Assembly (NCBI GenBank): GCA_009773415.1
Contig: WSNO01000016.1
Coordinates: 41,908 to 97,866, forward strand
Length of the DNA stretch: 55,959 bases
Reading direction: 5' to 3'
DNA from: Nitrospirota bacterium
GTDB lineage: Bacteria > Nitrospirota > Thermodesulfovibrionia > Thermodesulfovibrionales > Dissulfurispiraceae
Shown here: positions 27,271 through 37,205 of the stretch, piece after piece
Layout of the letters: every line of letters starts with the position of its first letter
How positions within the stretch are numbered: position 1 is the stretch's first letter
Translations under genes and position numbers: made by a program
Notes under the pieces: model-generated
Database searches by the model: none
What the model was told of the DNA's origin: nothing
Seen by the model: only the letters and a program-made list of their open reading frames with translations

Positions 27271-27309
27271 CATACACTACCCGTTGCGTGCGTCAACGGG
27301 TAGTGTATG
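27271..27309 (+). repeat. Perfect 16-bp inverted repeat before gpsA
   Basis: CATACACTACCCGTTG (27271-27286) and its exact complement (27294-27309) flank the 7-nt loop CGTGCGT. No T-run follows on either strand. It sits between the PilZ-receiver gene and the gpsA promoter, so it may end transcription in a factor-assisted way, protect an mRNA end, or be a regulator site. Confidence 0.75.
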
Positions 27310-31954: not shown

Positions 31955-32263
31955 ATGAAGAAAATTATTCTTTTGGCAGTTGCCGTGCTTTTCGTCTTTT
32001 CTTTCGGCTGCGCCACGAAGGACTATGTGAAACAGCAGATTGACCCGCTTGCAGACAGAATCAGCAAGCTGGAGGGGAAGACCGTTGAGCTTGACGGCAA
32101 AGCGGCGGCGGCACAAGCAACCGCGGCAGAGGCAAAAAAGATCGCTCTTGACTGCTGTGAAAAGTCTGATGCAGCAGCAAAGAGAGCTGAAGCAGCGGCA
32201 GCTCGCGCTGAAGCAGCAGCTGATAAAGCGGCAAAGGCTTTCCAGCTTGGCCAGAAAAAGTAA
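31955..32263 (+). CDS. Lpp-like alanine-zipper lipoprotein
   Basis: The 102-residue precursor has a lipoprotein signal peptide ending in lipobox SFGC (Cys19), then a long helix: a coiled-coil segment (IDPLADRISKLEGKTVELDG, about 29-48) and an Ala-rich repeat with 'AAAARAEAAADKAAKAF' near the end, like OprI/Lpp alanine zippers. It ends in LGQKK, and a C-terminal Lys is the residue that L,D-transpeptidases attach to peptidoglycan in E. coli Lpp. A very strong AAAGGAGGTGA site suggests abundant expression. The gene is convergent with an L,D-transpeptidase, which supports a wall-tethering role (inference). Confidence 0.88.
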   Translation: MKKIILLAVAVLFVFSFGCATKDYVKQQIDPLADRISKLEGKTVELDGKAAAAQATAAEAKKIALDCCEKSDAAAKRAEAAAARAEAAADKAAKAFQLGQKK

Positions 32264-35184: not shown

Positions 35185-35505
35185 TCCTGTCCATACAGTA
35201 TGGAGGCAAGCCGCTCAGACTCCAAAACCGTCATTCATCCATCCCATCAACGATCATTTTTTGCAACAACTGTTCCTTTTTTTGCTTCACTTGTTGCTTT
35301 ATCAACAATCTCCTATTGGAATATTTTCTCGCATGGCGCCCCTGAAAGCACTCCGGACTAGCTGTTCTGAGACTGGATACAAAAATGATACAATCGTTTA
35401 CGGATAATGAATGTTCACAAAAAAGAACCAATCGTTCGAAAAAGCAATTTTATTGTTGACATATCGTATTCAATCGTGTACAGTATTTTTAGATTGAAGG
35501 CAACC
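35185..35505 (+). promoter_or_regulatory. Upstream region of the winged-helix gene with three CAATCGT boxes
   Basis: This 321-base AT-rich stretch has no convincing ORF. The heptamer CAATCGT occurs at 35391, 35429 and 35471 (spacing 38 and 42 bp, about four helical turns), each followed by T or G. The third lies between the -35 and -10 of the downstream promoter, so a repressor bound there would block it. The downstream winged-helix protein is the obvious candidate, but this is inference. Confidence 0.5.
35456..35484 (+). promoter_or_regulatory. Promoter of the winged-helix gene
   Basis: TTGACA (35456-35461), 17-bp spacer, TACAGT (35479-35484); start of transcription expected near 35491, with a GAAGG site before the ATG at 35506. 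Confidence 0.75.
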
Positions 35506-36054
35506 ATGCTGAGAAGCCTGTTTTCATCATCCATTCGAGCAGACGTTCTCTCTTTGCTGCTCAACAGTCCGGACGAAAAATTCTACGTCCGGGAGATAGC
35601 CAGGATTGTCCGAAAAAACCCCTCCGGGGTAAAGCGGGAGCTTGACAAGCTGGAGGAGATGGGTATCGTCTTCAGCGAGCGGGTCGCAAACCTCAAGTAC
35701 TTCCAGGCTGACAAAACCTCCTCACTCTATTCCGAACTCAAGGAACTCATCGCAAAGTCTCTCGGCCTCCCCGGTGCCCTGAAAAGCCTTCTCCGCGCAA
35801 ATGACATCAGGATAGCGTTTATTTATGGCCCCTACGCTGACGGCGAGGAAGAAGTGACAATGGTCGACATGGTCGTTGTCGGCCCCTCCACGCCGGCACT
35901 GCTGATGGGGCTGAAAGACATAGAACGAAAATTCCAGAAGACGATCAACTGCACGGTTTTTGATGAAGCAGACTATCGGGCCAGAAAGCGCGAAGATGCA
36001 ACATTCAAGCGGATGCTGGCCAATAAGCGGATACCTCTGCTCGGAAGGGCATAA
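35506..36054 (+). CDS. Winged-helix protein with degenerate nucleotidyltransferase domain
   Basis: The 182-residue product from the ATG at 35506 has an N-terminal winged helix (about 5-70; helix-turn-helix around FYVREIARIVRKNPSGVKRELDKL) and a C-terminal domain like minimal nucleotidyltransferases. The active-site motif, normally GS then DxD, reads G108-P109 and M119-V-D121, so the Ser and one catalytic Asp are lost and the domain is probably not catalytic. Such proteins are likely regulators with a nucleotide-binding or vestigial domain. A longer frame to 35407 crosses the promoter and is not used. Repeats upstream suggest autoregulation. Confidence 0.82.
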   Translation: MLRSLFSSSIRADVLSLLLNSPDEKFYVREIARIVRKNPSGVKRELDKLEEMGIVFSERVANLKYFQADKTSSLYSELKELIAKSLGLPGALKSLLRANDIRIAFIYGPYADGEEEVTMVDMVVVGPSTPALLMGLKDIERKFQKTINCTVFDEADYRARKREDATFKRMLANKRIPLLGRA

Positions 36055-36126
36055 GGGATAGATTTTAGGAGTATCTCGCTCTCAAAAGGCGCTGCTTTTT
36101 GGGAGGATGAAAGGGGGTGACCAAAG

Positions 36127-36207
36127 ATGGCAGCAACAAAAAAGGCTCCGGCAAAAAAGGCAGCAGCGAAAGCTCCGGCAAAAAAGGCAGCAGCGAAAAA
36201 GAAATAA
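36127..36207 (+). CDS. 26-residue Lys/Ala-rich histone H1-like peptide
   Basis: The ORF encodes only Met, Ala, Thr, Lys and Pro: 11 Ala, 11 Lys, 2 Pro, one Thr and the initiator. It has two near-identical APAKKAAAK units and ends in KKK. A very strong AAAGGGGGTGA ribosome site precedes it. The composition matches the C-terminal tails of histone H1-like bacterial DNA-binding proteins (PAKK repeats), so a nucleic-acid-binding role is plausible. It lies 72 nt after the winged-helix gene and is followed by the large hairpin at 36231-36320. It may equally be the remnant of a longer protein, or a leader peptide. Confidence 0.65.
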   Translation: MAATKKAPAKKAAAKAPAKKAAAKKK

Positions 36208-36230
36208 GTTCCGGGAATGCGTGTTCTTTT

Positions 36231-36320
36231 CGGGAATACCCAAAAGGCTTTGCCAAGATGCGACGAAGCACTGGTCAAAGCTTCTGCAAGCAGATGAATT
36301 TGGGTATTCCCGCTTTTTTT
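36231..36320 (+). ncRNA. Large branched hairpin ending in a T-run (structured RNA or terminator)
   Basis: A perfect 14-bp stem pairs CGGGAATACCCAAA (36231-36244) with TTTGGGTATTCCCG (36299-36312), followed by CTTTTTTT. The 54-nt interior is itself structured: AGGCTTTG (36245-36252) pairs with CAAAGCTT (36276-36283), extended by CCA/TGG (36253-36255, 36272-36274) and an inner TGC/GCA, with a short TCTGC/GCAGA element after. A second CGGGAAT at 36212-36218 could compete for the right arm. Ordinary terminators have small loops, so a stable 3' UTR RNA or an sRNA is possible. It ends 7 nt before the lpxC stop, between convergent genes. Confidence 0.6.
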
Positions 36321-36326
36321 GCCGAT

Positions 36327-37205
36327 TCAGCGGAGAGCGTCGACCCGGGCATGGTCAGCTTCTGTCACGATGCTATATGCTTCCGGAGAGCTGAGAAGTT
36401 GCAGCAGGAAATTGGCATTTGCCCGATGGCCTGCTTTTTCGAGAATAATGTGTCCGAGGATCGGCATTCCGACAAGTGAAAGGTCGCCCACGGCATCCAG
36501 CATCTTGTGCCGCACAAACTCATCACGATAGCGCAGTCCCGTAGGATTCAGAATTCCCTCATCGCCGATAACAATTGCATTGGCCAGTGAACCGCCCTGC
36601 GCCAGGCCATTGGCCTTTAACGATTCCACATCTTTGAGGAAGCCGAAGGTTCGCGCCGGGGCGATTTCCTCCATAAAAGACCGCTCGCTCAGCTCCAAAC
36701 GTAATTCCTGGCGCCCCAGTGCGCTGCCGTTGAAGTCGATGCGGTACGTCATGCGCCGACCTTCATAGGGCAATGCAACAACGCGGGCGTGTGCATCCTC
36801 ATAGGTAACCGGCTGAAGGATGCGCAAATGCGGCATCACCTTCCCCTGGCGGGCAATGCCGGCATCAAGCAGCGCAGAAACGACAGTGAGGGAACTCCCG
36901 TCCAAAATGGGCACTTCGGGGCCGTCGAGTTCGACGGTCAGGTTATCCACACCAAGCCCTGCTGCAGCCGCAAGCAGATGTTCGACCGTCCGGATGCGGA
37001 AATGTTCATTGCCGAGTGTCGTGCAAAAAGCTGTTTCCGTAATGGCACTGACATGGGCGCGTATCGTCATGTTTTTGTCGACTCTGTGAAAAACGACCCC
37101 GCTGTCAGGAGCGGCAGGAAGCAGACGCACTGTAGCACGGCGTCCGCTGTGAACACCGACACCGGAAAAAATCACTTCATTTCTTATTGTTCGTTGTAGC
37201 CTCAT
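36327..37205 (-). CDS. lpxC: UDP-3-O-acyl-N-acetylglucosamine deacetylase LpxC
   Basis: This 292-residue zinc amidase catalyses the committed step of lipid A synthesis. Zinc ligands are in TVEHLLAA and HKMLDAVGDL, and other signatures are LDGPEVPILDGSS and ARTFGFLKD. No FabZ fusion is present. It proves an outer membrane with lipid A. The start ATG at 37205 has no clear ribosome site. Confidence 0.96.
   Translation of the reverse strand: MRLQRTIRNEVIFSGVGVHSGRRATVRLLPAAPDSGVVFHRVDKNMTIRAHVSAITETAFCTTLGNEHFRIRTVEHLLAAAAGLGVDNLTVELDGPEVPILDGSSLTVVSALLDAGIARQGKVMPHLRILQPVTYEDAHARVVALPYEGRRMTYRIDFNGSALGRQELRLELSERSFMEEIAPARTFGFLKDVESLKANGLAQGGSLANAIVIGDEGILNPTGLRYRDEFVRHKMLDAVGDLSLVGMPILGHIILEKAGHRANANFLLQLLSSPEAYSIVTEADHARVDALR

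Follow-up and report, generated by a model that had tools for sequence, protein, structure and literature searches.

Gene content of the locus

The window, i.e. the entire 55,959-nt stretch of DNA analyzed here, carries on its forward strand a gene for an ArsR-type HTH protein (positions 35509 to 36054, with the longest ORF starting at 35407), assigned by a Pfam HTH_5 match above the cut-off. It is followed by a 27-nt leader hairpin, CTCTCAAAAGGC-GCT-GCTTTTTGGGAG (36079 to 36105), which ends 3 nt before a long Shine-Dalgarno (SD) stretch, GAAAGGGGGTGAC (36109 to 36121), and by a 26-codon ORF for the Lys/Ala-rich peptide MAATKKAPAKKAAAKAPAKKAAAKKK (36127 to 36207). The hairpin studied in this work begins 23 nt past the peptide stop codon, a placement that is the same in relatives. 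Beyond its T tract by 6 nt lies the end of lpxC (36327 to 37205, reverse strand; Pfam LpxC), and this convergent gene is all that follows, with no same-strand gene downstream of the hairpin at the locus. Elsewhere in the window, a small Ala-rich ORF (31955 to 32263) with the lipoprotein-like start MKKIILLAVAVLFVFSFGCA is presumably reminiscent of Lpp-type lipoproteins.

Orthologs of the HTH gene were found in 126 of the 176 genomes of the order, and within the window's family this gene is invariably located 5' of the peptide gene. Equivalents of the Lys/Ala-rich ORF occur in all sampled relatives, and searches of Pfam and NCBIfam returned no match for the peptide. Its Lys/Ala repeat composition is shared with histone H1-like bacterial proteins such as AlgP (PMC9239181); the likeness is one of composition only, and, in contrast to such proteins, the peptide has just 26 residues (13 to 116 codons across the order). 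In some genera the ORF is tandemly duplicated (L065, L066, L068, L079 and L085), each copy having its own strong SD and one hairpin following the array. Longer Lys/Ala-rich ORFs that lack the hairpin were also noted at four loci elsewhere in these genomes (L013, L025, L026 and L028).

The long SD stretch is conserved in relatives, most of which also have a leader stem near it. The end of this stem usually lies 1-5 nt ahead of the SD; its pairing is kept and its sequence changes between clades. These stems beat shuffled sequences at p < 0.05 in 31 of 64 leaders (about 3 expected), a count that is indicative only, as the leaders are related. SD-proximal leader hairpins were observed across the order and beyond (leaders L065-L090 and L107-L146).

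Structure of the 3' hairpin

The closing stem is a perfect 14-bp helix between exact reverse complements, CGGGAATACCCAAA at 36231-36244 (core GGGAATACCC, 36232-36241) and TTTGGGTATTCCCG at 36299-36312 (core GGGTATTCCC, 36302-36311), which enclose 54 nt and give a hairpin of 82 nt in total. Directly 3' of the stem, CTTTTTTT at 36313-36320 consists of a C followed by seven T. The stem, loop size and T-run reported in the preliminary description are thus confirmed. The minimum free energy of the hairpin is -41.9 kcal/mol (z = -3.48), equaled by none of 200 shuffles. Perfect 14-bp inverted repeats with arms at most 80 nt apart occur in the window only here and at 27271-27309, and none was encountered in 40 Markov-resampled windows. 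The other locus is a short-looped perfect inverted repeat of 16 bp, CATACACTACCCGTTG...CAACGGGTAGTGTATG, which has no T tract directly after it.

In the window genome, the apical domain (36245-36298) is predicted to be branched, with seven consecutive pairs (36246-36252/36276-36282), three more past a bulge and a 4-bp side hairpin, so that the inner helix described earlier is present. A duplicate of CGGGAAT upstream of the stem was likewise located (36212), although its proposed role as an alternative partner of the closing stem is not supported, since its pairing with the 3' arm is predicted at below 1% and a comparable upstream GGGAAT exists in only 4 of 26 family members. The branched fold and this possible partner are the features that would suit a riboswitch or attenuator. 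Such a function, raised as a riboswitch-like element in the preliminary description, is nevertheless extremely improbable, considering the weak alternative pairing, the lack of a conserved aptamer-like core or of conserved unpaired columns in the family, the missing same-strand target gene and the missing Rfam match.

The hairpin has the features of an intrinsic (Rho-independent) terminator, i.e. a stable stem containing G-C pairs, a direct T tract and an intergenic placement after a gene. It differs from such terminators in its size, in its large and variable apical domain, and in the conservation across genera of its stem sequence and not just of its pairing. For comparison, the average intrinsic terminator of S. 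aureus measures about 30 nt (PMC7821165).

Distribution in the window's family

A covariance model built from the closing stem was searched against the 176 genomes of the order Thermodesulfovibrionales. It matched 25 of the 31 genomes of the window's family and, outside that family, produced nothing but one weak hit. Two more family genomes (G042 and G043; loci L107 and L108) have diverged hairpins at the same place, which were recognized by eye. Altogether, homologs at the same place are found in all 27 family genomes that retain the upstream HTH gene, and the remaining four genomes, some of them incomplete, lack that gene. The hairpin is single-copy in the window genome. One relative contains a second HTH-peptide-hairpin copy without adjacent lpxC (L090, G005:C37), possibly a duplication or the product of a mixed assembly.

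The gene order Sua5-HTH-peptide-hairpin-lpxC-tldD is common to most family members, and this tight linkage bears out the tie to the Lys/Ala peptide that was suggested earlier. At five relative loci, two of them near a contig end, the hairpin follows the HTH and peptide genes and lpxC was not found alongside, which assigns the hairpin to the peptide transcript. The symmetry of the hairpin could be explained if it terminated transcription in both directions and also served the convergent lpxC, a role compatible with termination of the peptide mRNA. The opposite strand has a T-rich tail (TAATTTTT) in many relatives and the covariance model matches both strands; on the other hand, the corresponding tail in the window reads GAAAAGAAC, and the hairpin is retained at loci without an adjacent lpxC, so we regard two-way use as quite unlikely.

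Several broader assignments were rejected. A genome-wide motif or uptake sequence was not supported, since the 2.46-Mb genome contains seven copies of GGGAATACCC, including the two arms themselves, and about five occurrences are estimated by chance for any 10-mer. A mobile or repeated element does not agree with a single-copy hairpin whose locus is fixed in relatives. Wide distribution was also dismissed: the exact two-arm pattern was detected at 27 places in genome contigs, of which 16 have the HTH gene and/or lpxC beside them (Nitrospirota), while the other 11 have neither gene and no T tail, with about seven estimated by chance. A scan of viral sequences gave one place, without HTH or lpxC neighbors. 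Rfam contained no match for the hairpin and none that was convincing for its relatives, in agreement with the earlier remark that it resembles no familiar RNA family, and nothing in the literature search was recognized as this hairpin.

Conservation and covariation

Across 27 sequences, 268 of the 270 cells for the ten core pairs of the stem show pairing. Four of the 15 stem pairs examined never vary. The observed variants keep pairing, including A-U in place of G-C in four sequences, G-U in place of A-U and U-G in place of C-G. Changes on both sides affect 7 of the 15 pairs, a level reached by one of 500 shuffles and by no slid control, although the rows are related and the counts are not independent events. 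The proposal of a structured RNA is supported by homologs as well as covariation; the preliminary description had tied a plain terminator to the absence of both, and by that measure the hairpin is not one.

For a terminator, one generally expects the structure and the T tail to be conserved, not the sequence of the stem. At this locus, relatives keep the T-rich tail, and across 14 genera the stem core GGGAATACCC/GGGTATTCCC has hardly changed, in contrast to its diverging flanks and interior; for instance, every one of the 19 sequences aligned at first has the identical GGGTATTCC in its 3' arm. Terminator-like hairpins downstream of the ribosomal protein S20 and tmRNA genes in the same family are absent or unrelated between genera. 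These controls support, without proving from two loci alone, that sequence conservation of terminator stems is not the rule in the family. When shared terminators were sought in 20-kb neighborhoods, where little synteny exists, the sole other case was the same hairpin read from the lpxC side.

Measured from one 10-nt core arm to the other, the interior is 21 to 60 nt long and has no conserved columns in the family alignment, with sequence, length and fold all differing between genera. Its folding (mean z -0.86; 9 of 26 below p = 0.05) is pronounced in certain genera but lacking in others, which argues against a common interior fold. This variability also bears on a trans-acting sRNA of about 90 nt derived from the 3' UTR, another function proposed at first. 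The size, stability and terminator end of the hairpin would fit such an RNA; however, conservation is confined to the stem arms and T tail, no unpaired seed-like stretch is conserved, and even closely related genera differ in the interior and the 5' flank, which makes a trans-acting sRNA very unlikely. A stable RNA derived from the 3' end may nonetheless exist.

Comparison with other families of the order

We compared 38 sampled loci (L109-L146) from other families of the order, together with several other families of the class. As a rule, the HTH gene is followed there by an SD-adjacent hairpin with a strong SD, a Lys/Ala-rich ORF and a terminator-like hairpin. The latter is mostly short-looped and has a different stem, GGCTGG(A/G)G being a common one. 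The exact pattern GGCTGGAGA-N(2-14)-TCTCCAGCC was found in 32 of the 176 genomes, all but two of which have a single copy; no genome of the window's family contains it. In 31 of the 32 carrying genomes, coordinate comparison placed this pattern shortly after the HTH gene; hence this stem is locus-specific in the other families.

These observations bear on the main rival or addition to termination, namely that the helix is read sequence-specifically by a factor such as an RNA chaperone, an RNase or a dedicated binder, termination being only one of its jobs. Termination alone does not account for the conserved stem sequence. The nearly invariant core arms, the different stem that occurs about once per genome at the same locus in other families, and the lack of such conservation at the S20 and tmRNA loci all point in this direction, and ProQ and other proteins are known to bind 3'-end structures (PMC7821165). 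Against a factor stand the lack of a candidate, the small number of control loci and the wholesale swap of the stem between families in which the HTH gene and peptide stayed; on balance, we consider it unlikely. An extended version can be proposed only tentatively. In an old Nitrospirota module of ArsR-type HTH gene, SD-adjacent hairpin, Lys/Ala peptide and locus-specific 3' hairpin, the 3' helix may be a dedicated RNA identity element, swapped between clades, whose reading by a factor would decide the fate of the polycationic peptide mRNA.

Proposed function of the hairpin

The hairpin is most simply read as an intrinsic terminator whose apical domain is unusually large, and the preliminary interpretation is partly supported. 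With a probability of roughly 0.78, we propose that it forms the intrinsic terminator and 3' end of the small Lys/Ala-rich peptide mRNA, as an enlarged, lineage-specific 3' stabilizer. The structure, its homologs, covariation and gene linkage, and the difference from other families were established from sequence comparison, while termination, stabilization and high expression of the peptide mRNA are suggested by general knowledge of terminator hairpins. This reading is favored by the strong stem with its C-T7 tract and the T-rich tail in relatives, by pairing that is kept through two-sided changes, and by the position of the hairpin just after the peptide gene even without an lpxC neighbor. 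It is further favored by the ordinary short-loop terminator that ends the same gene at the equivalent place elsewhere and by an interior without conserved sequence or fold. Counting against it, a plain terminator needs neither a conserved stem sequence nor an apical domain of 21-60 nt.

The peptide mRNA would be transcribed alone or jointly with the HTH gene that precedes it. After making the long hairpin, RNA polymerase would pause at the U tract and release the transcript, and the hairpin may then impede 3'-to-5' exonucleases. Stabilization of transcripts by terminator hairpins is established (PMC7509114; PMC7821165). Together, the SD-adjacent leader hairpin and the 3' hairpin would bracket a compact mRNA some 250 nt long. 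Hairpins at both ends, a short mRNA and a strong SD are reminiscent of mRNA-stabilizing stem-loops of the ompA 5' UTR type and of 3' terminator hairpins (PMC7509114), although the leader hairpin, here a predicted structure, lies within a few nucleotides of the SD. At the 5' end the bracket model may be incorrect, since in B. subtilis a stem loop very near the SD can reduce stability (PMC7509114). In the window's family, the short-loop terminator of related families may have been replaced by a different, near-invariant stem with a freely drifting apical domain.

If stem conservation proves common among the orthologous terminators of the family, the finding would be ordinary. If more controls confirm the present ones, the locus would be a clean, testable example of selection acting on a terminator helix at the level of its sequence: in many genera one gene retains the same terminator stem sequence, and one family exchanged that stem and then froze the new one around a changing interior. 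The analysis also indicates that much of Nitrospirota has a polycationic peptide gene that is paired with an HTH protein and has escaped annotation.
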